52,865 nucleotides of DNA from Opitutaceae bacterium. GTDB taxonomy: Bacteria > Verrucomicrobiota > Verrucomicrobiia > Opitutales > Opitutaceae. The stretch is taken from assembly GCA_028280945.1 (NCBI GenBank), contig JANQKV010000065.1:1-52865 (forward strand). The letters run 5' to 3'. The position numbers and the translations under genes are program-made. Shown one piece after another: positions 15,572-52,600 of the stretch. How positions within the stretch are numbered: the first letter of the stretch is position 1; each line of letters begins with the position of its first letter. The notes beneath the pieces are model-generated. The model worked only from the letters and a program-made list of their open reading frames with translations. It did no database searches and was not told the origin of the DNA.

Positions 15572-16963
15572 CTAAGGGCTGTGATACGGTGGCCAGAAGG
15601 ATCTGGGCTCCAGCAGGGCGGGTTGGCCGGGCAGCCAGGGTTCGGGTGCCACTTTGCCGTCGTCGCCTTGTGCCTTCATCCACGCGTCGAGTTCGCCGCG
15701 CAGGGTGTTGAGGATGTCGGCGTAGCCGGGGTTGGCGGCGAGGTTGTCCAACTCATTGGGGTCCTTGTGCAGGTCGTAGAGTTCCTCGCCCGGGCGGTGC
15801 AGATAGCGGTTGAGGATTAAGGACGCGCGGTGGTTGGTGGTCGCGGCTTCCTCCCATGACCAGAAGTAGGCCCCGGCATTGTCCTTGCGGTAGCGGTAGC
15901 TGTGGTCGCTGAAGATCCAGTTGGGCTGCAGGTTACGGATGTATTTCCAGCGATCACTGCGGACGGAGCGAATGGGATAGACGTTGGCGCGGCCATCGTT
16001 GTCGTGGGTCGTGAAGATGCGGTTGCGATGGGGAAGATCGGGATCCCGCAGGACGCGTAAGAACGATTTTCCGTCCAGGTTCTCCGGAACCCGGTCACCG
16101 GCGGCATGCAACAAAGTCGGTAACAGATCGATCCAGCTCACCATGGCGGCGGACCGCGAGCCGGCTTCGATATGGTCCGGCCAGGAAACGATGAAGGGTA
16201 CGCGCGTGCCTTCGTCGTAGAGGCTCCATTTGCCAAATGGCCACTGGCCCCCGTGATCAGATGACATGACGGTGAGCACGTCCCTGCCCAGGGCCTCGGC
16301 CACGATGGCGCGCGAACGGGCGAAGTCGCTGTCGCCGGAGGTGATGTCCGTGTAGTAACGGGCGCGGAAAAGCCGGGTGTCCGGCGTGTCGACATGGAAG
16401 GGTGGAACAATGACGGCAGCAGGGTCGTAGCCGTCGTTTTCGGGCCAGGGCACATGGGGTGCCACCGTGCCGACGAAAAGCAGCACCGGGCGGCCGAGGT
16501 CACGTTGGTCGAGCCAGGAACGGATGGACTCGAAGTTCAGCCTGGGGTGCTCGAAGTGGTCGAAGCCGTGGCGCCCGGCATCCTTGCCGTGGGCGACCTT
16601 GCCGAAGGCCGCGACCTGATAGCCCAGGGCCTTGAAACGTGGAATGAGCGACATGGCGTCGTCGCGCATGTAGGTGTGGTTGGCCTCGGCACCGTTGTGA
16701 ACGGGAGTAAGCCCTGTGAGCATGGCGGCGCGGCTGGGAGCGCAAGCCGGGGAGATTACAAAGGCCCGGTCGAAGGTCATGCCTTCGGCGGCAAGTTGAT
16801 CGAAGGCGGGAGTGCGCACGTCGGTCGCGCCATAGGCTCCGACATCCCGTGCGCTCAGGTCGTCAGTAAGAAAAACAAAGATGTTGGGCGGAGCAGCGTG
16901 GGCCGGTGGACCGGCAAGGACCAAGTAGCAAGTCACAAGTAGCAAGACACGAACGAGGGGCAT
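15572..16963 (-). CDS. Secreted sulfatase, S1 family (N-sulfoglucosamine/iduronate-sulfatase-like)
   Basis: From the ATG at 16963 the protein has 463 residues. An upstream in-frame start at 17002 would put 13 polar residues before the signal peptide, so the inner start is preferred. FGly motif CAPSR (Cys at residue 74) in SPACAPSRAAMLTG; metal-site strand FVFLTDDL near the N-terminus and SSDHGGQ further on. The enzyme hydrolyses sulfate esters or sulfamates after Cys is oxidised to formylglycine. The C-terminal subdomain RSDRWKYIRNL and GEELYDLHKDPNELDNLA is typical. The signal peptide core LLLVTCYLVLAG is encoded by the ACTTGCTACTTG repeat family. The neighbouring 5' gene is the beta-helix enzyme. 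Confidence 0.92.
   Translation of the reverse strand: MPLVRVLLLVTCYLVLAGPPAHAAPPNIFVFLTDDLSARDVGAYGATDVRTPAFDQLAAEGMTFDRAFVISPACAPSRAAMLTGLTPVHNGAEANHTYMRDDAMSLIPRFKALGYQVAAFGKVAHGKDAGRHGFDHFEHPRLNFESIRSWLDQRDLGRPVLLFVGTVAPHVPWPENDGYDPAAVIVPPFHVDTPDTRLFRARYYTDITSGDSDFARSRAIVAEALGRDVLTVMSSDHGGQWPFGKWSLYDEGTRVPFIVSWPDHIEAGSRSAAMVSWIDLLPTLLHAAGDRVPENLDGKSFLRVLRDPDLPHRNRIFTTHDNDGRANVYPIRSVRSDRWKYIRNLQPNWIFSDHSYRYRKDNAGAYFWSWEEAATTNHRASLILNRYLHRPGEELYDLHKDPNELDNLAANPGYADILNTLRGELDAWMKAQGDDGKVAPEPWLPGQPALLEPRSFWPPYHSP
16921..16946. repeat. ACTTGTTAC-type repeat inside sulfatase signal peptide
   Basis: CCAAGTAGCAAGTCACAAGT continuing with AGCAAG is the reverse complement of the TTGCTACTTGTGACTTG repeat and encodes the hydrophobic core of the sulfatase signal peptide. 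The same family occurs in the gap just upstream (17022-17053). Confidence 0.8.
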
Positions 16964-17021
16964 ATTTGAAACGTGTGGATATCTGATAGTTTCAGGTGTC
17001 ACCGGCCATGTGAATTGAGTT

Positions 17022-17053
17022 CCTGGTACTTGTTATTTGTTACCTGCCACTTC
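17022..17053. repeat. ACTTGTTAC-type repeat overlapping a stop codon
   Basis: Units GGTACTTGTTATTTGTTACC and TGCCACTTCC follow each other. The TAA stop of the beta-helix gene (17040-17042) is part of the repeat. Confidence 0.8.
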
Positions 17054-18482
17054 CGGTCAGATTTATTTTCTGACCGGTGAGGGACCAGGATTTTGGATCG
17101 CCGTTGGCTTTGGCGGGTTGGCCGTGGATGGTGACGTTGTCGAAGGTGATGCCGGTCACGTTGCCATCGTCTTCGGTTGTGATGAAGTGGCGGCCGTTCA
17201 TCGCGCCGCGCACGTGGACGTCTTCAAATCGGAGGTTGCGCACGGTGCCCTTGACCCGGGTCAACCCCACCAGCATGGCAATGTCGCTGTCGATGAACAC
17301 ACGCCGCAGCGTAACGCCGTCAATGGTGCTCTCCGCGTTTTGGTTGCGCAGGTTGAGGATGGCTTGGTTGCGCTCGTCGGTTGTCTTGTGTGCGGCCTCG
17401 CAGGCGATGATGTCGATGTCCTCCGCGAGCACGCCGGTGGCACGCTGACCGGCGCCACCCCAGCCGAGTTGGAAGGGGGCACCATTGACCTGTTGGTAAA
17501 TGACGAGGCGACGGGCGATTTGGTTGGGGTTATAGAACTTCACGTTGTCGTCGTTGACCTTCATGAAACTATCCTCGACGACCGAGCCCGGGCCGCCGCC
17601 CCAGCCGTCGGTTTGGTGCCAGAAGCCGAAGAGTTTGACGCGGCGCGTGGTGAGCTGACCCCGGGACAACACGCAGAAATGAGTGGGATTGGTGATGGTG
17701 ATGCCTTCGACAAGCTGGTTGTCGCCCGGGCCGTTGAACATGATGGTGTTGTAGGGAATGCTCTGCGGTCCGGGGCGCCGGGGATAGCCGTAGCCGGAGA
17801 GGATGCCGCGGCCCCGCACTGTGATGTTCGATTGGGCTTCGGCGGTGATGGAGCCGATGACATAAGCGCCACCTTCGATGTAGACCGTCTGGCCGTCTTC
17901 GATGAGGTAACGCTCACCGATCTCATGCATCTTTCCCGCTTCGAACCAAATGACATTGGGGTCCTGGCGGTCCGGCACATCAACCTCCGGTGGGTCGGCA
18001 AAGATGAACAGCGGATGCTCTTTGGTGCCGGGGATTTTAACCCAAAACTGCCCGGGTTCGGAGACGGTGAAGCGAATGGTGTCGTCTGCAATAGTGGGGA
18101 CAATCTCTCGCCGCAGCGGACGGATCTCCGTCCCGGCCGGGGCGAATCCAGAGACTTTGACTTCGACGGTGACTTCACCGTCGAACGAAAACGTCGTCCA
18201 GTGGTTGGTGTCGGACATGCGGTCCATCAGGTGCGGATCCTGATGGTGGTGCACGTAGGTGAACGATGGATGGCGCACGCCGTCCTGAATTACCGTCACT
18301 GCGTAATTCGGCGACGTGAAATCGTCATTGGGCGACGGATACGTCCAGACGGCGGCAAAAGCCGCCGCTGGAAGTGCCAAGGAGCAAATAACAAGTATCA
18401 GGAACCGGACAGATGAACGGCCCGTTGCCGTCAGATTGGTTGACGCGGGAATGGGAGAACGGGTTGTGAAGAGAGTGGTCAT
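17040..18482 (-). CDS. Secreted right-handed beta-helix glycosidase (GH28/GH49-like)
   Basis: From the ATG at 18482 (480 aa) the protein has a signal peptide with core FLILVICSLALPAAAFA. A longer frame from 18614 runs back into the lactonase gene and is rejected. An N-terminal beta-sandwich (residues about 40-150, ending HPLFIFADPPEVDVP) is followed by a beta-helix with GQTVYIEGGAYVIGSI, NITVRGRGILSGYG, QLVEGITITNPTHFCV and SFMKVNDDNVKFY. The NDDNVKFY Asp pair is a candidate catalytic site, as in GH28/GH49 enzymes acting on polygalacturonate, dextran or related chains. A paralogue lies at 48335-49741. The last codons and the stop lie in the repeat at 17022-17053. The upstream gene is the lactonase, 22 bp away. 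Confidence 0.75.
   Translation of the reverse strand: MTTLFTTRSPIPASTNLTATGRSSVRFLILVICSLALPAAAFAAVWTYPSPNDDFTSPNYAVTVIQDGVRHPSFTYVHHHQDPHLMDRMSDTNHWTTFSFDGEVTVEVKVSGFAPAGTEIRPLRREIVPTIADDTIRFTVSEPGQFWVKIPGTKEHPLFIFADPPEVDVPDRQDPNVIWFEAGKMHEIGERYLIEDGQTVYIEGGAYVIGSITAEAQSNITVRGRGILSGYGYPRRPGPQSIPYNTIMFNGPGDNQLVEGITITNPTHFCVLSRGQLTTRRVKLFGFWHQTDGWGGGPGSVVEDSFMKVNDDNVKFYNPNQIARRLVIYQQVNGAPFQLGWGGAGQRATGVLAEDIDIIACEAAHKTTDERNQAILNLRNQNAESTIDGVTLRRVFIDSDIAMLVGLTRVKGTVRNLRFEDVHVRGAMNGRHFITTEDDGNVTGITFDNVTIHGQPAKANGDPKSWSLTGQKINLTGSGR
18373..18402. repeat. ACTTGTTAC-type repeat inside beta-helix enzyme signal peptide
   Basis: The minus strand reads CCTGATACTTGTTATTTGCT and then CCTTGGCACTT, encoding FLILVICSLAL. 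It is the same unit as in the flanking gaps at 17022-17053 and 18486-18519. Confidence 0.75.
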
Positions 18483-18485
18483 ATC

Positions 18486-18519
18486 GTTTGTTACTTGATA
18501 CCTGTTACTTGTTATTTTT
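18486..18519. repeat. ACTTGTTAC-type repeat spanning a gene junction
   Basis: Bases read GTTTGTTACTTGATACCTGT and then TACTTGTTATTTTT. The TAA stop of the lactonase gene (18505-18507) and its last codons (NNK) fall in the repeat, which fills almost the whole 22-bp gap to the beta-helix gene. Confidence 0.85.
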
Positions 18520-19632
18520 CGCGCCGCTCGGCGCGAATTTGAGGTCGGTGGGGTTGGGGAAATCGAGACCATGTTCGGTTGCGGTGAGCAGGCCTGTTGT
18601 CGGGTCGAGGGCAAAGACGTTCACGCGGTGGGCAAAGCGATTGCAGACGATCAGCCATTTGCCCGAAGGATCGATCACCATGTAGCGGGGATGGTCGCCT
18701 CCGGTAGGGATGATTTGGATACGCTTCAGATGGTCCCCGTCGCCGACGGCGAAGACGGCGATGGTGTTGGGACCGCGGTTGGTGGCGTAAACGAAGCGAC
18801 CGTTGGGATGGACTTTGACCTCGGCGCTGAAGTTCGTGGCCGTGTCATCGGTGGCGAGTGTGGGATAACCGGGGCCTTCGGTCAGGTGGCCGGTGGTGGC
18901 ATCGTAAGTGTAGGGGGTGAGGCTGCCGTTGATCTCATTGATCACGTAGGCGCGAGTGCCGTCGGGATGCCATGACAGGTGACGCGGACCGGCGCCGGGG
19001 CGGGCGGTGATCGGCCGTTTGAGGGGAATGAGTTTGCCAGTCTCAGCGTCGAAGGCGTAGGCCCCAAGGCGATCGGTGCCACGGTCGGCGACGTAGGCGT
19101 AGCGGTCGTCCGGCGAGAGGTTGACCGAGTGGGGATAGGAATGGTCCTGGCGCTCGGGGTGAATGCTGGAGCCGGTGAGGGTCACTTCAGCGGCGATGGG
19201 GCCGAGGTTGCCGTTGGGTCGCAGAGGGATGGTGACTGCCGTGGGCGTCAGGTAGTTGGCCACAACGGCGAATCGATTGTCCTTGCTCAAAACCAGGTGG
19301 AGCGGAATGCGGCCGGCGAAGGCCCGGGTATCGATCAGCCTGAGTGAATGATCCGTCGCCACCGCATAGGATCGCAGCACGGCGGGGGTGTCGCTCGAGC
19401 CTTCATGGCCGCTGGCGTAGAGAAACCTTCCGTCTTGGGAGAGCTGGAAGAAAAACGGTTGGACTTCGGTGAGGCGGCGCGGCTCGGAAAGAGCGCCGGT
19501 GGCGGCATCGAACTCGGTCAGATAAAGACCGGCGGCACCTTCGCGGTCAGCGGAGCCGAGATACAGGGGTTGAGCGGAGAGAAGCACGGGCAACAAGAGG
19601 AGGAGGTTGGTGAGGTAACGGTGTGGTTTCAT
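18505..19632 (-). CDS. Periplasmic lactonase-family beta-propeller (6-phosphogluconolactonase-like)
   Basis: The chosen ATG at 19632 gives 375 residues with a signal peptide (MKPHRYLTNLLLLLPVLLSAQ); the longer in-frame start at 19743 adds a non-signal 37-residue stretch and is rejected. Repeated blade motifs are clear: LYLTEFDAATGALSEPRRL, FQLSQDGRFLYASGHEG, NLSPDDRYAYVADRGTDRL, VHPNGRFVYATNRGPNTIAVF and VIDPSGKWLIVCNRFAHRV. They match the seven-bladed lactonase (Pgl/carboxymuconate cyclase) family. Export suggests action on sugar lactones in the periplasm rather than on 6-phosphogluconolactone. It is likely co-transcribed with the beta-helix gene 22 bp downstream. Confidence 0.85.
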   Translation of the reverse strand: MKPHRYLTNLLLLLPVLLSAQPLYLGSADREGAAGLYLTEFDAATGALSEPRRLTEVQPFFFQLSQDGRFLYASGHEGSSDTPAVLRSYAVATDHSLRLIDTRAFAGRIPLHLVLSKDNRFAVVANYLTPTAVTIPLRPNGNLGPIAAEVTLTGSSIHPERQDHSYPHSVNLSPDDRYAYVADRGTDRLGAYAFDAETGKLIPLKRPITARPGAGPRHLSWHPDGTRAYVINEINGSLTPYTYDATTGHLTEGPGYPTLATDDTATNFSAEVKVHPNGRFVYATNRGPNTIAVFAVGDGDHLKRIQIIPTGGDHPRYMVIDPSGKWLIVCNRFAHRVNVFALDPTTGLLTATEHGLDFPNPTDLKFAPSGAKNNK

Positions 19633-19664
19633 CTCCGGGTAGGGGGGGTAGAAATTGGGAAAAT

Positions 19665-19687
19665 CAGAATGAGGAATGACGAATGGC
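19665..19687. repeat. Fragment of AATGACGAATG repeat family
   Basis: AGAATGAGGAATGACGAATG resembles the repeat inside the DUF1593 signal peptide (45914-45947). It lies just 5' of the lactonase start. Confidence 0.45.
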
Positions 19688-19827
19688 CGGGTGATCGCGC
19701 GGAAGGGCAACTCATGGGCCCCGTCAGCGTTTGACTGCGGCAAAACTATGGCGAAGCCGAGGCTCTCGTTTTTACAGAAACGCAGGTCGTCAGGTATTCC
19801 TCCTGCACCGAGGCTTCGGCGGACAAG

Positions 19828-19890
19828 AAAGCCCGACCCACATTAGGAGAGGGGCGTATGAGTGGGTCGGGCTTTATGCCCGACAACGAA
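19828..19890. repeat. GGGTCGGGCTT inverted repeat, copy 1
   Basis: AAAGCCCGACCCAC (19828-19841) and GTGGGTCGGGCTTT (19862-19875) are exact reverse complements, and the second arm continues ATGCCCGACA. The same family forms the large inverted repeat at 42900-42967. It lies in the gap between the lactonase and sulfatase genes and could act as a bidirectional terminator, although no T-run follows. Confidence 0.75.
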
Positions 19891-20010
19891 TGGGATTTGC
19901 TTTTCACGTTTCTTCAGAGAGCTGAGCAACCAAGTCTTATCGAGGGGGAAGCGTTGTCGGAGCGGAGTTTGGTGAGATCGTAAAGGACCGCACATTGCAA
20001 AGAGGCCCTT

Positions 20011-21402: not shown

Positions 21403-21489
21403 TGTTTTTATGGCACGTTCCGAGCGAAGCGACATCTGAGGAGTGAAACGACAAGACGACCCACAAAAGCGGTGGGGCAGGGCTGTGAT

Positions 21490-21625
21490 TATACAGAAGA
21501 AAACGAAGCTAACGAAGGTGGCTGAGAGGCGGGGTGGATTTTACAGGAGATAGCGGAGTTTAGCAGAGGAGTTTGTGCGCCTATGGCGCGTGGATCCGCT
21601 TCCCTCTGCTTGCTCCTGCAAAAAC
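21490..21625. repeat. Dispersed stem-loop repeat element, copy 2
   Basis: Same order as copy 1: TACAGAAGAAAACGAAGCT, GGTGGCTGAGAGGCGGGG, TTTTACAGGAGATAGCGGAG, the hairpin TGCGCCTATGGCGCG, then CTCTGCTTGCTCCTG. It occupies the gap between two sulfatase genes. The start of the next gene's 3' end is marked by the palindrome CACTGATCAGTG (21632-21643), which contains the TGA stop. Confidence 0.8.
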
Positions 21626-21637
21626 TGAAATCACTGA

Positions 21638-23269: not shown

Positions 23270-23467
23270 GGCGAATGAAGGCGGGGTTCGTTGGCGAAGA
23301 TCGATCCGAACAGTCGAACCCAAACGAGTCGGCACCTTAATCGCATTATCGTAATTTGTGGCGTAACTCGTTTCGCCCGTCCAATCCGGACGCAGTGTGG
23401 TTCGGAATTCGCGAATGCCCCGGCAGAATTCTTGGAAACCTCTGACGGCCACCGGCGTCTTACTGAC
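23270..23467. promoter_or_regulatory. Divergent intergenic region between sulfatase and dioxygenase genes
   Basis: This 198-bp gap separates two divergent genes and must hold promoters for one or both. It includes an AT-rich patch (TTAATCGCATTATCGTAATT, about 23336-23355), the best candidate for a core promoter. No clear -35/-10 pair or operator is seen. Confidence 0.3.
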
Positions 23468-24160: not shown

Positions 24161-24203
24161 GGGGCAGGGTGCACCCGCCGCAGGGCACCGTTCCGTCGAG
24201 CGG

Positions 24204-28456: not shown

Positions 28457-28462
28457 GGGTCG

Positions 28463-28635: not shown

Positions 28636-30045
28636 TCAGTAACCCCGGTAGTGACTGCTCATCTCCGCCCACCAGGCCAGGGTGCGGGTGGTGAACTCGG
28701 CGACGAGGGCGGGGTGAGTATCCGCAAGATTGATACGCTCGCGGAGGTCGGTGGACAGATCGTGCAGGCGAACGCCGGAGCCGTCGGGGTTGATAAAAAA
28801 CTTCCAGTTGCCCAGGCGCATCGCGAGCTGCGGGCTGATGTGTTCCTCCTTGCCGGGCTGGATGCTGCCGAAGGCACCGTATTCCCAGAATACCGGGATG
28901 TTCCGGTGCGCCGGTTCACCCAGCAGAACGGCGGAGACGTCGGTGCCGTCGTAGGATTTGCCGGCAGGTGCGGCGAGTCCCGCCAAGGTGATCAGGCTGG
29001 GCTGAAGGTCAAAGGCGGCGATCACGCTTTGATTGTCGGTGGTTTGGGCAGGCACGCGGCCGGGCCAACGGATGATGAAGGGCATGCGGATACCTCCTTC
29101 CCACAAGCTCCATTTGCGGCCGAAGAAGGGACCGGTGGAGCCTGGCGGGTTGATACCTCGGTTGTAGTAACGCGGCCAGTCGGTCGGGCCGTTGTCGCTC
29201 GTGAAGATGACAATGGTGTTGTCGGCGTGACCGGTGGTTTCGAGTTGGTCAAGCAGGCGGCCGATTTGACGATCCATCTCAACCAACACGGCGAAGAACT
29301 TTCGTTCCTCGGGGTTGTCCGTGATGTCGGCGAATTTAGCCGCATCCTCGGGAAGCGGAATGAAGGCGTCGTGTACGTCGTTGGGGAAAACTTCCAAGTA
29401 AAACGGACGATTGTCGTCGCGGCGGACAAATTCGATGGCGTGATCAATGTAGATCTGCGTGGTGTGGCGCTTTTCGACGTCGCGGATCTCTCCCTGACCG
29501 TGCGCCCTGCTGGCACTCGCGGCAGGCTCGTTGTTGAAGAGAATGCGATCGCCCAGGCCCTCGAAGGAAACGAGTGATTCGTCGAAACCATAAGCCTGCG
29601 GCAGCGGGGCATCACCCACGTCGCGGCCGCCGCCCAGGTGCCACTTGCCAAAATGGGCGGTGCGGTAGCCGGAATCCTTGAATACCTGCGCGGTGTGGAT
29701 GGCAGCGGGGTCGAGGTAGTTGGCCATTTTGCGGTTAGCCTGCGCCTGGCGGCTGGCGAGGAACGACTGGATGCGCCAGCGCTGCTGGTATTGGCCGGTG
29801 CTCAGGGCCACGCGTGAGGCCGAGCAGATGGGCGAGTTGACGTAGAAATGGGTGAAACGCCGGCCCTCGGTCGCGAGTTGATCGATGTGGGGCGTCTTGA
29901 CCGGGCCATGGCCAAAGGCGCTCACATCGCCGTAGCCCATGTCATCGATGAAGAAGATCAGGACGTTGGGTTTTTCGGCGGATGCGGAAAAGAGGAATAG
30001 CCACAGAGAACCACAGGAGAGCACAAAAAGTCTGAGGGGCAGCAT
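28636..30045 (-). CDS. Secreted arylsulfatase with CSASR motif
   Basis: 469 residues starting MLPLRLFVLSCGSLWLFLFSASA, a signal peptide. The metal site LIFFIDDMGYGDVSAFG is followed by the FGly motif CSASR (Cys74) in VNSPICSASRVALSTGQYQQ; the CxAxR variant is used by several bacterial sulfatases. KWHLGGGRDVGDAPLPQAYG and VIFTSDNGPTDWPRY are the usual helper motifs. The C-terminal subdomain ends GVRLHDLSTDLRERINLADTHP. The signal-peptide DNA overlaps the CCACAGAGAACCACAGGAG repeat. It may desulfate an N-acetylhexosamine- or galactose-type sulfate, but this is a family-level guess. Confidence 0.9.
   Translation of the reverse strand: MLPLRLFVLSCGSLWLFLFSASAEKPNVLIFFIDDMGYGDVSAFGHGPVKTPHIDQLATEGRRFTHFYVNSPICSASRVALSTGQYQQRWRIQSFLASRQAQANRKMANYLDPAAIHTAQVFKDSGYRTAHFGKWHLGGGRDVGDAPLPQAYGFDESLVSFEGLGDRILFNNEPAASASRAHGQGEIRDVEKRHTTQIYIDHAIEFVRRDDNRPFYLEVFPNDVHDAFIPLPEDAAKFADITDNPEERKFFAVLVEMDRQIGRLLDQLETTGHADNTIVIFTSDNGPTDWPRYYNRGINPPGSTGPFFGRKWSLWEGGIRMPFIIRWPGRVPAQTTDNQSVIAAFDLQPSLITLAGLAAPAGKSYDGTDVSAVLLGEPAHRNIPVFWEYGAFGSIQPGKEEHISPQLAMRLGNWKFFINPDGSGVRLHDLSTDLRERINLADTHPALVAEFTTRTLAWWAEMSSHYRGY
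29999..30030. repeat. CCACAGAGAACCACAG-type repeat in signal peptide
   Basis: AGCCACAGAGAACCACAGGA continuing GAGCACAAAAAG encodes, on the minus strand, LFVLSCGSLWL of the sulfatase signal peptide. Confidence 0.65.
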
Positions 30046-40018: not shown

Positions 40019-41521
40019 TCAGTGAGACTGGGTTGGACGGGCGCCGACGTAGCGAGGGTTGGAGACGGGCAACGGCTGGCCCAGCGAGTCGAGCAATTCG
40101 GTCAGGCGATTTTGCATCGCGTCGGCCCGGTCGGGCCAGCGGGTGACCTGGTTGCTGGTTTCGCCAATGTCGGTAGCGAGGTTGTAGAGTTCGTAGACAT
40201 CCTGCTGGTCGCGGCCGTTGAAGAAGTGGCGAACAAGTTTCCAGTCGCCATCGCGCAGCGCGGCGACCGGGCCGATCCGCATGTAGCGGGTGTAGTGAGG
40301 GTAATAGGTAAACCACTCGGATCGTTCGGTATCAGAATCTCCCAGCAACACGGGTGATTGATCCACCCCATCACAAGCCGTCCCGCGAGGGTGCTCGATT
40401 TGGCAAAGAGACAGGAGGGTGGGAAAAAAGTCAGTGCTGCCAAACAACGCATCCGAGGTGCTCCCCGCTGCGATGCGGCCGGGCCAGGAGACGATCAACG
40501 GCACGCGGGTTCCACCTTCGTAAATCGAACCTTTGCCCGCTCGCAACGGGTGATTGCTGGTGCCGGGAATGTGGGCGTAGCCCGTGGGTTCCGTACGCGG
40601 CGGCGCCCACGTGTTGCCGCCGTTATCGGAGAAGAAGACAACGATGGTGTTTTCCGCCATGCCGGTCGCGTGGAGGGCAGAAACGAGTTTGCCCACCACG
40701 TCGTCGAGGCACTCCACCATGGCGGCATAGACCGGGTGGTGCTGAGCGGCGTGGACGCGATCAACCGCTTTGGCGGCATACTTGGCAGTCAGATTGGCTT
40801 TGGAGGACCACGGGGAGTGGATCGAGAACGTCCCGTAGAATGCGAGGAACGGTTCTTCGTTGGCTGCTTGTTGCTCAAGAAACGAAACCAGTTCCGTTGC
40901 TATGCGGTCATCTGCATGCTCGCCGTCCTCAGCCGGAAGCGCCGCGTCGGACGCGTCGTCGATGCCCCAGGGGGCAAAGTAGCTGCGATCGATCATGCCG
41001 TTGGCGTTGAGCGGAATCGTCAGGTCGAACCCTTCGTGGTCGGGACCAAATTCCCCGTCGCCAAGATGCCACTTGCCGAAGTAGGCGGTCGTGTATCCGG
41101 CCGCCTTGAATACCTCGCCCAAGGTGACGGTGGTGGGAGGCAGCCGGGTGGCCGTCAGGAGTTGTTGGGCGGGGTCGGTGGGGCGGGCGTCGTCGGCCAA
41201 CGTGCTGGTGAAGCGAATGGCGGCGAGGTGGCCTCGAGCTTGAGTAATGCCGTGGCGCCCGGGGTAGTCTCCGGTGAAAATGCTCGCGCGAGTGGGCGAA
41301 CAGATGGGCGACGCGGTGTGGGCGTTGGTGAAGAGCATGCCGCGATCACGCAGGTTCTCAAGGTGTGGCGTCTCGTAGAAATCGCTCGTGCCGTAGAGTG
41401 TGGTGTCGCTCCACCCCAGGTCGTCGGCGAGGATGAAGAGGATGTTGGGTTTTTCCGCGACGGCGGAAAAACCAAGTAAGAAAGAGGAAGTCAGAAGTAA
41501 GAAGGAGCGGAGGTCTTGCAT
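40019..41521 (-). CDS. Secreted sulfatase with CSPTR motif
   Basis: 500 residues. The signal peptide MQDLRSFLLLTSSFLLGFSA is encoded by the ACTTC-rich repeat at 41472-41507. NILFILADDLGWSDTTLYG is the N-terminal metal site and the FGly motif is CSPTR (Cys74) in TASPICSPTRASIFTG. KWHLGDGEFGPDHEGFDLTIP and VVFFSDNGGNTWAPPRTEP are standard S1 features, with the C-terminal DVYELYNLATDIGETSNQV. It is most like S1 arylsulfatases of the N-acetylgalactosamine-6-sulfatase/heparan type; substrate unknown. A 129-bp gap separates it from the 3' neighbouring sulfatase/GH43 transcript. Confidence 0.92.
   Translation of the reverse strand: MQDLRSFLLLTSSFLLGFSAVAEKPNILFILADDLGWSDTTLYGTSDFYETPHLENLRDRGMLFTNAHTASPICSPTRASIFTGDYPGRHGITQARGHLAAIRFTSTLADDARPTDPAQQLLTATRLPPTTVTLGEVFKAAGYTTAYFGKWHLGDGEFGPDHEGFDLTIPLNANGMIDRSYFAPWGIDDASDAALPAEDGEHADDRIATELVSFLEQQAANEEPFLAFYGTFSIHSPWSSKANLTAKYAAKAVDRVHAAQHHPVYAAMVECLDDVVGKLVSALHATGMAENTIVVFFSDNGGNTWAPPRTEPTGYAHIPGTSNHPLRAGKGSIYEGGTRVPLIVSWPGRIAAGSTSDALFGSTDFFPTLLSLCQIEHPRGTACDGVDQSPVLLGDSDTERSEWFTYYPHYTRYMRIGPVAALRDGDWKLVRHFFNGRDQQDVYELYNLATDIGETSNQVTRWPDRADAMQNRLTELLDSLGQPLPVSNPRYVGARPTQSH
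41472..41507. repeat. Repeat unit inside sulfatase signal peptide
   Basis: The plus strand reads CCAAGTAAGAAAGAGGAAGT and continues CAGAAGTAAGAAGGAG; the minus strand codes FLLLTSSFLLG. It belongs to the ACTT(G/C)-type repeats and ends 14 bp inside the gene's 5' end. Confidence 0.7.
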
Positions 41522-41540
41522 CGGGGTTAGATAAAATAAT

Positions 41541-41570
41541 GAACCGCAGATTTCGCAGATTGGCGCGGAT
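41541..41570. repeat. GAACCGCAGATT-type repeat, intergenic copy
   Basis: GAACCGCAGATTTCGCAGAT followed by TGGCGCGGAT. The same GAACCGCAGATT(A/T)CGC unit is found inside the signal peptide of the 741-residue GH67-like protein (48146-48175). Confidence 0.6.
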
Positions 41571-41680
41571 GCGGTTGGACTGAATCGCTTCCTTACTCTT
41601 ACTTGTTCTCAAATTCCGAACCGGTCGGGGTTTTGGGGATTATGAGTATGAGAAGGAGAACGAGTATGATTGGGAGCGGG

Positions 41681-44433: not shown

Positions 44434-44468
44434 TATTCCTTCTCCCAGCAGCAGCGATCCAGGGCAAT

Positions 44469-44505
44469 CAAGAGAAAGATAATGATAAAGAGGAAAGAGA
44501 AAGAG
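44469..44505. repeat. AGAGAAAGATAATGAT-type low-complexity repeat
   Basis: AAGAGAAAGATAATGATAAA continuing GAGGAAAGAGAAAGAG between two genes. A similar tract in reverse (TTTATCTTTCCTCCTTATCC) lies at 48211-48240, and a third at 48269-48292. Confidence 0.55.
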
Positions 44506-44510
44506 GGCGA

Positions 44511-45986
44511 TTATTTGCTCTTCCCGATGATCAGCCGTTGGTAGGAGGTCATGGGATGTTCACCTTCTCGAGGGGAGTCGGTGACTTCCAGAATCACATG
44601 CAGGGTGTTGTCACCCAAGTCCGGCGGGAGGGTAATCGTTGCATGGTTCGAGTGGGCGTTGGTGATGAGTCCGGTGGTTTCGCCACGATAGGTACCGGCT
44701 TCGGGGTAGATCCACCAGGTTACGTGCAGGGAGTTTCGATCGGGATCAGAGACCTCGACCGAGAGGTTGATGGTATCATCATTGCGGGTGGCGGTGGCGG
44801 CGTGGATGACCGGTGCGTGATTGGCGTGGTCGAAATCGTTAAGGCACCAATCGGCGCGCGCAGCAAAATCACGAAAGAAGGCATCACGCCAACGCCAGAC
44901 CGGAGCGAAGTTGTGTTCGGTATAGGTCGTGCCGGATTCCGGGTCGGTCCACGTGTCGTTGAGCTCATCAAACATGTGGAAGTCGCCGTATTTCTCTTCA
45001 TCGACGCGCACATCGCGGTGCTTGGACCAGACATTTCTGGTGCGAGTATCACCGTAGCGGCCTCCCCAGCCGCCCCACGTGGGCTCGTCGGGGTTGTTCA
45101 GGCCATTCGGCAGGAGACGCAGGAAGGGAATGGTGCCGCCGCCTTCGAGAAAGGACACGCCACCGCGAGGGAATTGCCGAATCGGCCACCGCTCCATGAG
45201 CGGGCCATGGTTGCCCTTCAGGTGCATGAGTGCCCATTGGTGTTGGCCCAGTCCTGAGTATTCGTAAGGCGCCCACGTGTAGGGGCCGAGTTCGTTGCGC
45301 CGGCCGCGGTTGTCCTCGCCGCCATCGATGCTGGGACCGCCATAGGCATAGGTTTGGTAGTTGGAACGAATCCAGTGGACCGCGGGCCAGCGGTTGACGA
45401 TCCAAGCTCCGGCGTTGTCCTGGGCGCCGTTTTCGAAAGCGCGGATTTTCGCGAGAACTGCGGCAAACTCCTCCGCGGGCAGGCGTTCCTCCAGATCGAG
45501 CAGGGTTTGGGCGAGGGTATTGCTGCCGGCGTTGATGATGATGTGCACCGGTCGAGGATCATCGCGCAGCAGGATTTTTTCGATCAATCGGGAGCCGGGG
45601 GAAGCGCGACCGGGACCCGCATCGGCGATACCATAGCGTCGTTGGCCGGCGGCGACGGTAGCCTGAAGTTCGCCTGCGGAGGGCCAGCCTTCGGCGTGAA
45701 GACGCAGGTTTTCGACGACGCGGTCATAGCCGTCGATGAGATGAAAAAAGAGCTCGGGCTGCGGGTCCTTGCGGAGGAATTTTCCGGTCACGGCAATGAG
45801 GCCTTCGATGTCGAGCTCGTTGGCGTAGAGCAGCAAATGAACCATCTGTTGCTCCTCGTCCGGCTCATTGCCCATGTCAGCGAGGACGATGACGCGAGGG
45901 GCGGCTGGCGCAGCAATGACCAATGACGAATGATCAATGACGAATGCTAGCAGCACGCAGATCAGGCAGGAGTTACGGGTTTTCAT
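44511..45986 (-). CDS. Secreted DUF1593 (nucleoside-hydrolase-like) protein
   Basis: 491 residues with a signal peptide (CLICVLLAFVIDHSSLVIAA) whose core VIDHSSLVI is encoded by a CATTCGTCATTG repeat. The mature start RVIVLADMGNEPDEEQQMV has the Asp/Asn-rich metal loop of the nucleoside-hydrolase superfamily (Asp37, Asn40, Asp43). VHIIINAGSNTLAQTLLDL and WTDPESGTTYTEHNFAPVWRWRDAF are DUF1593 landmarks. A C-terminal Ig-like beta-sandwich follows (NLSVEVSDPDRNSLHVTWWIYPE). The fold can hydrolyse N- or O-ribosides, and DUF1593 proteins are usually tied to polysaccharide loci. Its start overlaps the end of the 741-residue GH67-like gene by 14 bp, so the two are probably translationally coupled. 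Confidence 0.88.
   Translation of the reverse strand: MKTRNSCLICVLLAFVIDHSSLVIAAPAAPRVIVLADMGNEPDEEQQMVHLLLYANELDIEGLIAVTGKFLRKDPQPELFFHLIDGYDRVVENLRLHAEGWPSAGELQATVAAGQRRYGIADAGPGRASPGSRLIEKILLRDDPRPVHIIINAGSNTLAQTLLDLEERLPAEEFAAVLAKIRAFENGAQDNAGAWIVNRWPAVHWIRSNYQTYAYGGPSIDGGEDNRGRRNELGPYTWAPYEYSGLGQHQWALMHLKGNHGPLMERWPIRQFPRGGVSFLEGGGTIPFLRLLPNGLNNPDEPTWGGWGGRYGDTRTRNVWSKHRDVRVDEEKYGDFHMFDELNDTWTDPESGTTYTEHNFAPVWRWRDAFFRDFAARADWCLNDFDHANHAPVIHAATATRNDDTINLSVEVSDPDRNSLHVTWWIYPEAGTYRGETTGLITNAHSNHATITLPPDLGDNTLHVILEVTDSPREGEHPMTSYQRLIIGKSK
45914..45947. repeat. CATTCGTCATTG repeat inside DUF1593 signal peptide
   Basis: Plus strand CAATGACCAATGACGAATGA continues TCAATGACGAATGC, a tandem of (C/T)AATGA(C/T)GAATG units. 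In the minus-strand frame it encodes AFVIDHSSLVI of the signal peptide. Confidence 0.8.
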
Positions 45987-48198: not shown

Positions 48199-48334
48199 GA
48201 AGGAGCCGCTCTTTATCTTTCCTCCTTATCCTTATCTTTCGTCAGGGTGAGCGTGCTGCTCGGCGGTTGGGAGAAAGAGAAGGAGAAAGATCCGCTGGCA
48301 CTGGCTTCGGGCGGTTGGGAGAGAAATGGATGGG

Positions 48335-49741
48335 TCAGGGGGTGAACCGGATGTTGGAGGTACTGTTGGGATCGATGTCGAAGTTGGCCTGAACGGGGGC
48401 GGTGATGACTTTGCCGCCGATGGTCAGGTTTTCGAATGTGATGTCCTCGAACCGTCCTGTGTCCTCCAGGGTCTTGATTTCGTTGGATTGCAATACCGGC
48501 CCCTCGACCTCGATATCGCGGAAAAGCAGGCCATGGATGGTTCCCGAGGTGGGCGAGCGCGACCATGACGTTTGCAAGGCAGTCAGTTTCACCAGTCGGA
48601 AGATGGGCCCCTCGATCCGAATGTCCTCGAAAACGAAGTCGGAAAGGTCGGCCGATCCGCCGTGGATGGAGCCGAAGACTGCCCGGTTGTTGGCGTCGCG
48701 GTAGTGTTCGACACGGATGACGTCGATGTCGGAGACGCGGATGCCGGAGGCATTGGTGTTCAGGTTCCAGCTCAGCTGGAAGACCATGCCGTTGTCCATC
48801 TGCCAGACGACATTTCGGCGCACGATCATGCCATCGTAGTAGAGTTTGAACGTATCGTCGCTGACCTTGAAGAAACTGTCCTCGACAATGCTGTCTGCGC
48901 CGATGCCGAGTCCATCGGTGCTCCACCACCAGGCGATCATCTTTATGTTGGAGACGTGGTGTTCGCGGCCGCGCAGGAGTAGGTTGTAGTGGGGCGAGTT
49001 GAGGAAAGTGATGCCCTCGACACGCACGCGGTCACTATCCCCCCGTAGTTCGAACAGGTGGGGAGCGGTGTAGGTGTTGGGTGGATTGGGCGGATAAACC
49101 GAGCCGGCGAGAATGCCACGACCGGTTAGTTGGACGTCGGGAGCATTTGCCCCTTTGAACAGTCCGTAAACCAAGGCGCCGGGAGCGAGATAGATGATGT
49201 CGCCCGCCGCGACGGGCTGGGTTTCATTGCCCAGGTTGTAGACGCCCGGGCCGAACCAGCGCACGTTTGGAGCATTACGGTCGGGAATGTCGGTCTCAGG
49301 AGGATCGGCGAAGATGAGCAGCGGGTGGGCGTCGAGGCGGCCGTTAATCTCGACGGCAAATTGGCCCGGGCGGTCGAGAATGAACGAAAGGCTGCCGTCC
49401 GAGTGCAGGTCGGGCGTGATTCCGCGGGATGATGGGAGGACGCGGGCTTTTGTAACTGGTCCAGCCGTGGCCCTTACCGTGACTGTTACCGCCCCTTCGA
49501 AGGCGAAACTCGTCCACGATGTGTCGTCGTGTGGATTCGTCGCAATCTGCTGCGCCCGGGTAAAGAGCACCGGGCTTGCCGACTTGTTGTCGCCTTGAGT
49601 GAGCGTGACCTCGTAGTGGGGCGACCGCAGGCTGGGATCGGGCAGTGGGTAAGGCTGAATGGAGGCGCTGGCTACGGAAAGAACTGCCCACGAAAAGGCA
49701 CTAAAAAGCGCAAAAAGATGGAGAGGCAGCGAGGTTTTCAC
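48335..49741 (-). CDS. Secreted right-handed beta-helix glycosidase (GH28/GH49-like), paralogue
   Basis: 468 residues with a signal peptide (LHLFALFSAFSWAVLSVAS) whose DNA is a GGCACTAAAAAGCGC-type repeat. The N-terminal beta-sandwich has SPHYEVTLTQGDNKSASPV and DAHPLLIFADPPETDIP, directly comparable to the enzyme at 17040-18482. The beta-helix carries YLAPGALVYGLFKGA, VQLTGRGILAG, RVEGITFLNSPHYNLLL and SFFKVSDDTFKLYY. VSDDTFKLY matches NDDNVKFY in the paralogue, so the Asp pair is conserved. It probably cleaves an internal glycosidic bond of the target polysaccharide. It is followed on the 3' side by the GH67-like gene with a 136-bp gap. Confidence 0.78.
   Translation of the reverse strand: MKTSLPLHLFALFSAFSWAVLSVASASIQPYPLPDPSLRSPHYEVTLTQGDNKSASPVLFTRAQQIATNPHDDTSWTSFAFEGAVTVTVRATAGPVTKARVLPSSRGITPDLHSDGSLSFILDRPGQFAVEINGRLDAHPLLIFADPPETDIPDRNAPNVRWFGPGVYNLGNETQPVAAGDIIYLAPGALVYGLFKGANAPDVQLTGRGILAGSVYPPNPPNTYTAPHLFELRGDSDRVRVEGITFLNSPHYNLLLRGREHHVSNIKMIAWWWSTDGLGIGADSIVEDSFFKVSDDTFKLYYDGMIVRRNVVWQMDNGMVFQLSWNLNTNASGIRVSDIDVIRVEHYRDANNRAVFGSIHGGSADLSDFVFEDIRIEGPIFRLVKLTALQTSWSRSPTSGTIHGLLFRDIEVEGPVLQSNEIKTLEDTGRFEDITFENLTIGGKVITAPVQANFDIDPNSTSNIRFTP
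49686..49720. repeat. GCCCACGAAAAGGCAC-type repeat in signal peptide
   Basis: CCCACGAAAAGGCACTAAAA continuing AGCGCAAAAAGATG encodes, on the minus strand, HLFALFSAFSW of the beta-helix enzyme signal peptide. Related units occur at 9932-9960 and 28409-28442. Confidence 0.65.
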
Positions 49742-49845
49742 AAAAGGTAACGAAGGAAAGGAAGGTGTTTTTTCTTAGAGGAGAGAACCGAGGGAAGCAG
49801 AGGAGTGGCTCTGCTAAACTCTGTTTGCTCCTGTAAAGAACGGTT
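49739..49845. repeat. Dispersed stem-loop repeat element, divergent copy 6
   Basis: Starts CACAAAAGGTAACGAAGGAA with GGAAGGTG, then GAAGCAGAGGAGTGG and the right arm GGCTCTGCTAAACTCTGTTT and GCTCCTGTAAAG. The right arm is the reverse complement of the left arm seen in copy 1 and copy 3 (TTTACAGGAGTTAGCAGAG). It fills the gap between the transporter and beta-helix genes. Confidence 0.65.
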
Positions 49846-51120
49846 TCAGCCAGCTTTTTTCGCGGCTTGGCGTTCGGCGAAACGCACGTCCTTGATGCCC
49901 CAGACGAGGTAGACGGACAGGAGGCCAAAAACGAAACCGATGGGAAAGATCACCCGGTAGTTGTTGCCGAAGAGTGCGATCAATGCGCCGCCGCCGGCGG
50001 CGGCGACGGTGCGGCCCAAGGCCATGCAGATGTTATAGGCCCCACTGATTTGGCCAATGATGTCGCGGGGGATAAATTCGGTCAGATAAGCCTTTTGGCA
50101 TACACCGCTGACCAATTGACCCAGACCAAAGAACAGGAACACCGGCAGCAGGTCATCGGCGCCTTCCGCGAACCATCCCAGCACGCAGCAGGTGAGCATG
50201 CTGCAATAACCACAGATGAGCGCAATTTGCTTGGGCAGGTATTTTTCCGCGATGATGCCGATAGGGATGGCCAAAAAGAAATTCAGTGCCGGCATCCAGC
50301 TCCAGATGCGCCCGAATTCGCCTCGGGAAATCAGCAGGGTGTCGACCGCGAACAACACGAAAAATCCCTGCAGGATGTTTTGGAAAAGATATTGGGTGAA
50401 GCCGAGGCCACCGAAGCGACGGAGAATGGGATCACCCAAAAAATCCTTTACGTAACGGGCCGGAGTCAGGGGCGGACGCGCCTTGGGTATGACTTTTCTT
50501 TCGTTCAGGAACAGCGCCGGCAAGGAGACCATCGCCACCTGGCAGATTCCCCCGATGGTGTAGAGCACGCTGTCACCAAACTCTTCCAGGATGAACCCCA
50601 TGCCGTAGCGGTTGAACAACCAGCCGGTGGCCTGGGCCGACATCAGCATGAGGCCAGCCACAAAAGTGCGCATGGAGGGCGGGATCAGATCGGCCAGCAA
50701 CGGGTGGTCCGAACCCCACAGCACGTCCTGAAAAAACTGATACGTGGTTACGAGGATGACCAACTGAATCAGGCTTGCCGACTCCGGTACGAAAACGAGG
50801 CAGAAGCCGACGATGGGCGCGCAGGTCACCAGGAAAAAACCGCGGCGTCCGATGGGGGTCCAGATCTTGTCGCTGAGGATTCCGACCAGCGGATTGGCGA
50901 TGAAACCGAAGAGTGGATTGAGCGCGATGATGAGCCCGATGATGAACGCGTTTTCGGTGAAGGTTCGGATCGTGGTGGGCAGCAGGTTGCCCGAGATGTT
51001 TTCGGTCACCACCAGCCCCGCCCACATCGAGCAGAGGATAAAAATGGTGGACCACTTTGCCTGTTTTGGAGCGGCGTTTTGGTCCTCGGTCTCGGCGCGC
51101 GTTGCCGTTTCCTCGCTCAT
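49846..51120 (-). CDS. MFS sugar transporter (GPH/SLC45-like)
   Basis: 424 residues with 12 predicted membrane helices; the N-terminal ~20 residues are polar and cytosolic. The loop between helices 2 and 3 reads GILSDKIWTPIGRRG, the Asp/Arg/Gly-Arg-Arg signature of the MFS (GPH/SLC45-type) sugar carriers. DSVLYTIGGICQVAMVSL and LFFGLGQLVSGVCQKAYL lie in later helices. It most likely brings mono- or oligosaccharides released by the secreted enzymes across the inner membrane by proton symport. Its ATG overlaps the TGA of the sulfatase upstream (ATGA, 51117-51120), so the pair is translationally coupled. This is the only transporter in the window. Confidence 0.9.
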   Translation of the reverse strand: MSEETATRAETEDQNAAPKQAKWSTIFILCSMWAGLVVTENISGNLLPTTIRTFTENAFIIGLIIALNPLFGFIANPLVGILSDKIWTPIGRRGFFLVTCAPIVGFCLVFVPESASLIQLVILVTTYQFFQDVLWGSDHPLLADLIPPSMRTFVAGLMLMSAQATGWLFNRYGMGFILEEFGDSVLYTIGGICQVAMVSLPALFLNERKVIPKARPPLTPARYVKDFLGDPILRRFGGLGFTQYLFQNILQGFFVLFAVDTLLISRGEFGRIWSWMPALNFFLAIPIGIIAEKYLPKQIALICGYCSMLTCCVLGWFAEGADDLLPVFLFFGLGQLVSGVCQKAYLTEFIPRDIIGQISGAYNICMALGRTVAAAGGGALIALFGNNYRVIFPIGFVFGLLSVYLVWGIKDVRFAERQAAKKAG

Positions 51121-52538
51121 CGGGTGCGTCTGTCGCCGGGGATCCAGTTAGGGTTTTCCAATCGGGCGGAGGTGAAAAAGGTTTCAAACTCCGCCACCAG
51201 TTCTGGGTGCTTGGCCGCGAGGTTGCGGGACTCGCCGGGATCGCTCGGCAAGTGGAACAGCTCCAGGGGCCCGTCCAGATTGGGGCGCACGGCCTTCCAC
51301 TCCCCGCGCCGCGCCGCTTGCACGTATTTGCGTTCATGGAACTCCCAGAAAAGGAAGCGTTCACGAGCAGCAGGCTGCTTTTCGCCCCGCCATGCGGGAG
51401 TCAGGTCAAGGCCGGTGACGTGGCCCGGGATGGCGCCGGATTCCCCCGCGGCGGAAGCGAGAGTGGGCAGAATGTCCTCGAATGACCAGGGCAGGTCACT
51501 CGTCACCCCGGCGGGAATCTGCGCCGGCCACACGGCGATGGTGGGCACACGAATGCCGCCTTCATAGACGGAGCGCTTGAAGCCGCGCAGGCTGCCCGAT
51601 GAGTTAAAGAAAGCTGGGTTGCCGCCGACTTCCTGGTGCGGACCGTTGTCGGACGAGAAAAGAATAAGCGTATTTTCGGTTTCGCCGATGCGCTCAACGG
51701 CATCCACCACGCTGGCGACGGAACGGTCCACGATCTGAACCAATTCAGCCCAACGCTGCTGGGCGACCGGCCAGGGCTCGTCGGCGAAAGCCTCTTCGTT
51801 TTCGACCTCGAGTCCCATGGGTTTGCGTTCGTTGTTGGCGTGGGGTGGGGTCAGGCCCACATAGAGGAAAAACGGTTCCTCGGCGTCAGCCTGGCCTTCG
51901 ATGAACGCAACCGACTCATCCTGGGTCAGCCGAGGGATGAAATCCACTTTCACGGTGGCGGCTCCCGCGCCGCGGTGGTCCTCGTCGGGGACGGCGTTGC
52001 GCAATTCGACTCGCTCTTCGTTGCGCCAGATGAACGTGGGCCAGGAGTTGTGGGCGTGCCAGTGGTTCAGGTAACCCCAGAAGTAGTCGAAGCCTTGCCG
52101 CCGGGGCAGACCGGCGGTGCCGTTGCCCTCGGCTTCACCCAGTCCCCATTTGCCAATCATCGCGGTGTTGTAGCCGGCATTCTGCAGGATCTCGGCGATC
52201 GTCGTATCCTCCTCGCGCAGGGCAACGGCGGCGGGATCCAACCCGCGGCGGAAGTTTCCCCGAATCCATGTTTGGCCTGCGTGCTGGCCGGTCAGCAATA
52301 CCGACCGCGAAGGCGCACACACCGGCGACCCCGAGTAGGCATCGGTAAAGCGCATGCCTCGGGAAGCCAGCCTGTCCAGATGGGGTGACGGAAAGGCGGT
52401 TTGTCCGTAGCAGCTCAAGTCACCGTAACCGAGATCATCGGCGAGAATAATGATGATGTTGGGCTGCTTTGCCCCGAAGGCAAAGCAGCCAAGTAACAGG
52501 TAGCAGGTGCCAAGTAGCAAAGATCTGATGGGAGGCAT
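51117..52538 (-). CDS. Secreted sulfatase with CAPSR motif
   Basis: 473 residues. The signal peptide (MPPIRSLLLGTCYLLLGCFAFG) is encoded by the TACTTGGCACCTGCTAC repeat. Metal site NIIIILADDLGYGDLSCYG; FGly motif CAPSR (Cys71) in GSPVCAPSRSVLLTGQH. KWGLGEAEGNGTAGLPRRQG and LILFSSDNGPHQEVGGNPAF are the other conserved blocks, close to arylsulfatase A. C-terminal GPLELFHLPSDPGESRNLAA is typical. The DNA of the gene's end overlaps the start of the MFS carrier gene. This coupling implies that the sulfated ligand, once desulfated, is imported by that transporter. Confidence 0.93.
   Translation of the reverse strand: MPPIRSLLLGTCYLLLGCFAFGAKQPNIIIILADDLGYGDLSCYGQTAFPSPHLDRLASRGMRFTDAYSGSPVCAPSRSVLLTGQHAGQTWIRGNFRRGLDPAAVALREEDTTIAEILQNAGYNTAMIGKWGLGEAEGNGTAGLPRRQGFDYFWGYLNHWHAHNSWPTFIWRNEERVELRNAVPDEDHRGAGAATVKVDFIPRLTQDESVAFIEGQADAEEPFFLYVGLTPPHANNERKPMGLEVENEEAFADEPWPVAQQRWAELVQIVDRSVASVVDAVERIGETENTLILFSSDNGPHQEVGGNPAFFNSSGSLRGFKRSVYEGGIRVPTIAVWPAQIPAGVTSDLPWSFEDILPTLASAAGESGAIPGHVTGLDLTPAWRGEKQPAARERFLFWEFHERKYVQAARRGEWKAVRPNLDGPLELFHLPSDPGESRNLAAKHPELVAEFETFFTSARLENPNWIPGDRRTR
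52489..52522. repeat. ACTTGTTAC-type repeat in sulfatase signal peptide
   Basis: CCAAGTAACAGGTAGCAGGT continues GCCAAGTAGCAAAG. The minus strand codes LLLGTCYLLLG. A second tract of the family lies at 52571-52600. Confidence 0.85.
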
Positions 52539-52570
52539 GGAAATTGTGAAAAATCGGGACTGGGGTCCTT

Positions 52571-52600
52571 TTGTTACTTGTTACCTGTCACCTGATACTT
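52571..52600. repeat. ACTTGTTAC-type repeat at end of a sulfatase gene
   Basis: TTGTTACTTGTTACCTGTCA then CCTGATACTT. The TGA stop of the partial sulfatase (52588-52590) and its last codons (SIR) lie in the repeat; it reads in the opposite orientation to the tract in the neighbouring signal peptide. Confidence 0.85.

Follow-up and report, generated by a model that had tools for sequence, protein, structure and literature searches.

The window analysed here is the whole of contig C65, a stretch of 52,865 bp from a 5.44-Mb, 75-contig Opitutaceae (Verrucomicrobiota) genome, and its right-hand 36 kb codes for one predicted secreted enzyme after another, with sulfatases making up many of these. 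A preliminary description of this DNA had cited eight signal peptides as sharing their DNA with short intergenic repeats. In five of the eight, one of them weak and all on the minus strand, the coding sequence contains a degenerate array of 7-bp units. The arrays are of ACTTGNN type in genes 15572–16963, 51117–52538 and, weakly, 17040–18482, TTACTTC-like in gene 40019–41521 and CATTCGT-like in gene 44511–45986. We suggest that heptamer elements arise at gene edges, and that their hydrophobic, stop-free orientation has probably sometimes been kept as the core of a signal peptide.

One case is the predicted secreted sulfatase gene 15572–16963 (minus strand; Pfam Sulfatase), whose signal peptide, MPLVRVLLLVTCYLVLAGPPAHA, is derived from an array. 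The ACTTGNN array at 16918–16949 (minus strand) lies in sense orientation and codes for the hydrophobic core LLLVTCYLVLAG, and there is no in-frame ATG, GTG or TTG 3' of it in the signal peptide. It is positive at 16921–16946 in our period-7 (lag-7) test, in which at least 15 of 21 comparisons at a distance of seven bases have to match. The sulfatase gene 51117–52538 (Pfam Sulfatase), whose closest named orthologue is found in Opitutaceae bacterium M30B9, has an ACTTGNN array at 52489–52522 (minus strand) coding for LLLGTCYLLLG, which is lag-7 positive but under the threshold of the family pattern. A palindrome, GGCTGCTTTGCC-ttcgg-GGCAAAGCAGCC (52462–52490), stands directly 3' of this array. 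In the third sulfatase gene, 40019–41521, the signal-peptide stretch FLLLTSSFLLG is encoded at 41472–41507 (minus strand) by DNA that matches the TTACTTC-type pattern; the array is as described earlier, although it had been listed under the ACTTG unit. Here too a palindrome, GGTTTTTCCGC-cgtc-GCGGAAAAACC (41448–41473), follows directly on the 3' side, and its right arm is AEKP(N), the start of the mature sulfatase. The fourth array, CATTCGT/CATTGAT/CATTGGT at 45914–45947 (minus strand), is lag-7 positive and codes for AFVIDHSSLVI, containing the cited VIDHSSLVI. These residues close the signal peptide of gene 44511–45986, which is Sde182 nucleoside-hydrolase-like (Pfam PF07632).

The weak case is FLILVICSLAL at 18373–18402 (minus strand), the likely signal peptide of gene 17040–18482. 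By eye, its DNA is a degenerate ACTTGNT array (ACTTGTT ATTTGCT CCTTGGC) adjoined by a palindrome in the likely cleavage region, CGGCGGC-aaaa-GCCGCCG (18350–18367, also by eye), but the array fails both the lag-7 and the family-pattern test. The gene was missed by our signal-peptide rule, since the hydrophobic stretch is too distant from the start, and it is outside the signal-peptide counts below, except for that of complete stop-making units. The three arrays at 16921–16946, 45914–45947 and 52489–52522 stand as first claimed; the unit given as ACTTG(N)TAC is in fact the degenerate heptamer ACTTGNN. Three further cited words show no clear excess in 1.585 Mb of the same genome: GAACCGCAGATT has two exact copies (one intergenic, one in a signal peptide) where six shuffled words gave 0–1, while ACTAAAAAGCGC and CACAAAAAAGCACC have one exact copy each and, with mismatches allowed, are not above shuffled words.

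The property by which such an array can make a signal peptide follows from its period. As seven is not a multiple of three, a heptamer array encodes the same heptapeptide in every frame of a strand. On one strand, (ACTTGTT)n gives TCYLLLV whichever of the three frames is used; on the other it gives NK*QVTS, with a stop every seven codons, and the complement of ACTTGCT has a stop as well. The mean hydropathy is 2.30 for TCYLLLV, 1.96 for TCYLLLA (ACTTGCT), 1.63 for LLLTSYF (TTACTTC) and 0.30 for LLATRYS (CTACTCG), the last of which contains an arginine; AATTCGT has a stop in the sense orientation. The variants ACTTGAT and ACCTGAT place a stop on the sense strand, so that ACTTGAT is the opposite of ACTTGTT. 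Among the 2340 cyclic heptamer classes, examined on one strand, only 133 give a peptide that is both hydrophobic and uncharged. The types found in signal peptides include ACTTGTT and TTACTTC, while none of 15 CTACTCG arrays and none of 8 AATTCGT arrays lies in one. Likewise, the stop-making unit ACYTGAT accounts for 53 of 152 complete intergenic units but, within signal peptides, for 0 of 10 (Fisher p 0.03); nine signal peptides went into this count, among them that of gene 17040–18482, where no complete unit is present. Besides LLLVTCYLVLAG and LLLGTCYLLLG of the window, the cores include LILGTCYLALG (genome G000), LLLVSCYLLLP (G004), LLLVPCYLLLS (G007) and, in G005, LLLVTCYVLLP, LILVTCCLLLP and LLLATCGLFFP.

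Several heptamer families, ACTTGNT, CATTCGT, CTACTCG, AATTCGT and TTACTTC, occur in the genus, and several of them within one genome. In the genome of the window, matches to a pattern and to its reversed control number 22 and 0 for ACTTGNT, 12 and 0 for CATTCGT and 36 and 0 for CTACTCG, so the intergenic excess of the same words that the preliminary description looked for is present. The same-genus genomes G003, G004 and G005 have 102, 178 and 176 ACTTGNT matches against at most 5 for the control. Across this genome and 37 relatives, 29 of 38 genomes have a match; outside the genus the counts are low, mostly near or below the control. G011 belongs to the same family but to a different genus; there the reversed control gives 109 matches and the ACTTGNT pattern none, which suggests from the sequence a different, CATTGTT-like heptamer family there, as this is how the reversed pattern reads.

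The presence of arrays in signal peptides was compared with other classes of sequence in 1.585 Mb of the window's own genome (1210 genes, 385 predicted signal peptides). Lag-7 arrays were found in 18 of 826 intergenic regions and in 4 of 385 signal peptides. None was found in 578 cytosolic N-termini, the comparison that had been proposed earlier, nor in 233 hydrophobic N-termini, 668 internal hydrophobic segments, 385 mature N-termini or 3706 internal coding pieces. Lags divisible by three score in most coding classes, as expected from codon structure; in signal peptides lag 7 exceeds lags 4, 8, 10, 11 and 13, and in intergenic DNA lags 7 and 14 are in excess.

It could be argued that leucine-rich signal peptides resemble ACTTG words by chance, through codon usage, as the pyrimidine-rich leucine codons CTT, TTG and CTA spell the array, and one weak lag-7 positive, L101, looks like such a case. 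In the five-genome sample of 618 signal peptides and 134 arrays, however, the family pattern occurs in 8 signal peptides, against a mean of 0.33 (maximum 3) in 200 draws of synonymous recoding and 0.02 (maximum 1) when codons are shuffled. The lag-7 test is passed by 10 of the 618, against 0.47 (maximum 4) after recoding and 0.40 (maximum 3) after shuffling, and both tests are negative in all 971 internal hydrophobic segments of the five genomes. Codon usage, the refutation that the preliminary description had itself named, does not explain the arrays in signal peptides, because the recoded and shuffled sequences and the internal hydrophobic segments all fall far below what is observed, and together with the preference for lag 7 this makes chance resemblance very improbable.

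The distribution of ACTTGNT arrays points in the same direction. Of 99 such arrays in 2.567 Mb, 78 are intergenic, 6 lie in signal peptides in sense orientation and none in antisense, 13 are in other coding DNA and 2 are antisense at C-termini. Signal-peptide DNA thus has 6 arrays in 52.6 kb, one of them from the window, while the remaining coding DNA, about 2138 kb, has 15, so that the density differs roughly 16-fold. All 8 pattern-bearing signal peptides have the sense orientation. Counting nine of the ten lag-7 positives (L101 was dropped as likely chance) and two genes found by the pattern only (40019–41521 in the window and L233 at 13500), there are 11 array-bearing signal peptides. The link between repeats and signal peptides is a real excess, but at about 1.5% of signal peptides the "many genes" first claimed is too strong. 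Six of the ten lag-7 signal peptides have no in-frame ATG, GTG or TTG after the array.

Several points weigh against our interpretation. The numbers are small, 11 genes in four genomes. In a blind sample of G004 (400 kb, the first 20 kb of contigs 1–20), 10 of 238 intergenic regions and only 1 of 113 signal peptides were lag-7 positive, with 0/144 cytosolic N-termini, 0/47 hydrophobic N-termini, 0/119 internal hydrophobic segments, 0/113 mature N-termini and 2/2638 internal coding pieces as controls. The window was chosen by a reader, and many of the other stretches were chosen for containing a pattern match, regardless of the type of site. Genes were called with our own simple codon-usage caller and no standard one, so the gene starts are crude, and signal peptides were predicted by our own rule (a positive n-region, a hydrophobic window of 10 residues, small residues at the cleavage site and no later membrane segment) and not by SignalP. 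Four of the ten lag-7 positives (L063, L101, L198 and L233 at 11887) have an in-frame TTG or GTG at or after the array end, and in these translation could start downstream of the array. L233 at 13500 and gene 17040–18482 of the window both open with a CTGATACTTG stretch, where the AT unit stands in a stop-free frame; these stretches were missed by the strict count of AT units. In the Sde182-like gene the array adds an aspartate and a histidine, follows a better hydrophobic stretch and has a hydropathy of only 0.31, so it is not the core. Finally, an N-terminal motif marks 9 of the 11 genes with an array-bearing signal peptide as sulfatases, and some of them may share descent.

This last point leads to an alternative in which one ancestral sulfatase had an array-bearing signal peptide that then spread by duplication and transfer of sulfatase genes. 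Among all 618 signal peptides only 48 are of sulfatases by the same motif, and a tenth array-bearing gene is a sulfatase by eye; the claim that different enzyme families share the repeats is therefore only weakly true. Comparisons of orthologues are informative here. The G005 orthologue of gene 15572–16963 (68–69% identity) has the N-terminus MLPQKSSIYVPSFCAFLWLTLVCLTAAAS, an unrelated signal peptide without an array, and the G007 orthologue of gene 51117–52538 (74–75%) has MRLPRFCHSVFLLCSLIMGHGAFS, from a different array (TCATTGA TCATGGG GCATGGG GCATTTT). An ACTTGNT signal peptide is common to a pair of G004 and G005 orthologues (80% identical to each other), while window gene 28636–30045, 75% identical, is without an array. 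Between these two genes, identity is 89% within the array and 77% beyond base 66, so the array has been kept there. The expectation that repeat-bearing signal peptides differ from orthologous ones is thus borne out in orthologues of 68–75% identity, but not in the G004/G005 pair. This shared array and a cluster of sulfatases with look-alike signal peptides in G005 are what common ancestry would leave. Against it, several of the array-bearing sulfatases are only 26–36% identical (in the pairs listed) and have closer orthologues without an array, three array families are involved, and arrays are also present in two genes of the window that have no match to sulfatases. We consider a single ancestral signal peptide an unlikely explanation. 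As a separate observation, one sulfatase query gives 166–216 matches per genome in the genome of the window, G004 and G005, where several matches per gene are possible, and sulfatase genes seem to be strongly multiplied in these genomes.

Presence and absence of an array can also be followed outside signal peptides. An AMP-ligase-like gene contains the array-derived SPDPCNSILDTS in G007 and SPDTCNLILDTS in G004, both in frame, while the G005 orthologue (72% identical to that of G007 and 69% to that of G004) has only GAEPAAPVWH at this place. In-frame heptamer arrays in variable stretches of two conserved genes are found at L209 (G004), L220 (G007) and L237 (G005). The names ligase-like and RNA-methyltransferase-like are readings of the sequence by eye, not search results. 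Rickettsia palindromic elements are repeats with a palindrome and a defined common sequence that lie in frame in coding genes at tolerant places. The ligase-like gene resembles them in its in-frame presence and absence between orthologues, but the palindromes described below differ between loci, and the array is tandem.

Most arrays lie between genes, and their placement is polar. The nearer gene boundary is on the 3' side in 91 of 106 intergenic arrays with genes on both sides, and in 61 of 72 for ACTTGNT alone (p 1.5e-9). Intergenic ACTTGNT arrays occur in both orientations. Neighbours of opposite orientation less than 500 bp apart are arranged as -+ in 13 cases and as +- in one, and neighbours of the same direction less than 150 bp apart as ++ in 8 and as -- in one. 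Examples are found in the window. An ACTTGNT array at 17026–17043 (plus strand), antisense to gene 17040–18482, overlaps the end of this gene and supplies its stop codon (17040–17042), and on its 3' side the palindrome CCGGTCAGA-tttattt-TCTGACCGG (17053–17077) lies in the last codons of the gene. Similarly, the array at 18484–18508 (plus strand), antisense to the flanking genes, overlaps and supplies the stop codon 18505–18507 of gene 18505–19632, with the palindrome TTCGCGCC-gctc-GGCGCGAA (18518–18537) on its 3' side in the last codons. A third antisense ACTTGNT array, at 52574–52591 (plus strand), overlaps and supplies the stop codon 52588–52590 of gene 52588–52863, which is cut by the contig end. 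A CATTCGT array at 19667–19686 (minus strand) lies in sense orientation about 35 nt upstream of gene 18505–19632. The first 4000 bp of the window look like another kind of DNA, with a G+C content of 0.465–0.479 against 0.54–0.645 in later 2-kb steps and a series of short minus-strand open reading frames.

Such regular placement could mean that the arrays are functional signals for RNA or protein binding at gene ends, in translation initiation or at 3' ends, and that their presence in signal peptides is a regulatory overlap in which the peptide is incidental. A gene follows 75 of the ACTTGNT arrays on their 3' side; in 61 cases it is on the opposite strand with its stop end toward the array, and in 14 it is a start that the array faces. 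A same-strand start is faced by 7/7 AATTCGT, 9/9 TTACTTC and 10/15 CTACTCG arrays, and it lies within 12 nt of the array in 5/7, 2/9 and 9/15, respectively, all of which would fit a signal. On inspection by eye, each of the three window genes with ACTTGNT signal peptides has a complementary array ahead of its start. The L233 array at 13534 is also preceded by one, at a distance of 206 bp. A regulatory hairpin at the start codon, formed by pairing of the upstream antisense array with the signal-peptide array in genes 15572–16963, 17040–18482 and 51117–52538, was nevertheless rejected, because the upstream arrays lie at the 3' end of the preceding gene and because inspection by eye of the 160 nt before the start showed no such array at five array-bearing genes outside the window, one of which (L233 at 13500) is the gene with the array 206 bp further up; we retain it only as part of the functional-signal explanation. 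The latter is further weakened by the signal-peptide arrays being mainly of hydrophobic families and lacking complete stop-making units, and we regard it as rather unlikely.

The arrays are often accompanied by palindromes. A palindrome score of at least 16 is reached on the 3' side of 42 of 96 ACTTGNT arrays and at 107 of 932 array-free gene ends, compared with 9.5% on the 5' side of arrays and 7.7% of random intergenic 50-mers. The palindrome sequences are locus-specific, with a few exceptions at repeated or orthologous sites. Among the 618 signal peptides, array-bearing ones contribute three of the five strongest palindromes (3/11 versus 2/607, Fisher 4e-5), and in these three the mature sulfatase begins with the right arm (ADKP, AEKP, AKQP). 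It can be speculated that arrays are laid down by an active process targeting DNA hairpins near gene edges. It would add GAAGTAACAAGTATC-type units, in the direction leading away from the gene, to the strand on the 3' side of the hairpin, as in templated end-addition or by a hairpin-targeting retroelement. As its product would be frame-proof and hydrophobic in one direction, this process could keep making new signal peptides next to sulfatase domains as these multiply, and export signals would then be swapped faster than enzymes. We hold this to be quite improbable. By eye, the array-free ligase-like site of G005 has an imperfect palindrome. The idea that the palindrome is an inverted copy made along with the array is made less likely by this, as the array-free allele already has one, and the palindrome may be the target of the array and not its product. 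A G005 signal peptide, L233 15023, has a 12-bp perfect palindrome and lies in a sulfatase cluster of similar signal peptides; its core MLPHRLKALLLPLCGLLSPIHGSAVDR may be a decayed array.

Our preferred explanation remains the occasional retention of heptamer elements that arise at gene edges. Arrays of several degenerate 7-bp families lie beside genes, preferentially with their 3' end toward the gene, and most of those that fall inside coding DNA are probably removed by selection. An array in open orientation that follows a start codon and precedes the mature part of a secreted enzyme would provide a ready hydrophobic core, because the open strand reads TCYLLLV or TCYLLLA in all frames and is hydrophobic and uncharged, and a few such arrays have probably been kept. 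Gain of arrays rather than loss, and the export function of the array-derived signal peptides, are presumed here, as is any account of how arrays are made. The preliminary description had left open whether repeats are a source of signal peptides or signal-peptide DNA seeds the repeats. The first direction is favoured by the 78 of 99 intergenic arrays against 6 in signal peptides, their two orientations between genes and the orthologues without an array or with another one; nothing was found for the second, at which no formal test was aimed.

Both halves of this explanation have precedents, so that the link, of which the preliminary description knew no account, is in part already described. The TAACTGA direct repeats of marine Beggiatoaceae are heptamers, and according to the sections of MacGregor (2015; PMC4679880) that deal with them they are mostly intergenic, the majority just upstream of starts, have related heptamers that are seldom repeated, give stops in all frames in one direction and LSVISYQ in the other, and in open reading frames occur mainly at protein ends. 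Our arrays are likewise 7 bp in period, mostly intergenic (ACTTGNT 78/99), and have stops in one orientation and an open heptapeptide in the other. Judged by the same sections, they differ in consisting of several degenerate units in Verrucomicrobiota and not of a single TAACTGA unit (TAACTGA itself was not searched for), in that ACTTGNT lies mostly at gene 3' ends, often beside palindromes, and in an open peptide that is more hydrophobic (TCYLLLV 2.30, SVISYQL of TAACTGA 0.87) and is found in signal peptides. The term "signal peptide" occurs 0 times in PMC4679880. For the RU-2 repeat, a 2007 paper (PMC2759123) states in the portion concerned that the repeat is part of the predicted signal peptide of YPO1552, whose homologues have unrelated signal peptides. 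Here, too, a repeat lies within a predicted signal peptide (by our own rule, not SignalP) and orthologues mostly have a different one, with the G004/G005 pair both carrying the array. RU-2 as portrayed there is, however, a 168-bp element resembling a miniature inverted-repeat transposable element, with one such gene described, whereas the present arrays have a 7-bp unit, give the same peptide whichever frame is used and are found in 11 genes of four genomes. Borg tandem repeats, in the parts of PMC9879509 that treat them, occur between and inside genes, and repeat-bearing proteins are enriched in signal peptides; within open reading frames their unit is divisible by three and gives mostly disordered regions. 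The arrays described here are similarly both intergenic and intragenic, but with a unit of seven. Among the open-access matches listed, taken at the level of titles and the starts of abstracts and with most subscription papers outside this scope, none describes heptamer arrays in signal peptides, nor did we meet there the combination in 11 genes of a hydrophobic frame-proof unit, polarity and locus-specific palindromes.

These observations draw attention to polar, palindrome-associated heptamer arrays at the gene edges of Opitutaceae. The genus has amplified members of the hydrophobic, uncharged set of heptamers, and the turnover of signal peptides becomes testable with natural pairs of orthologues. 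Further, the arrays offer a concrete route by which non-coding repeat DNA might turn into a working part of a protein, as a copy that happens to lie the right way round can serve as a candidate for a hydrophobic segment.

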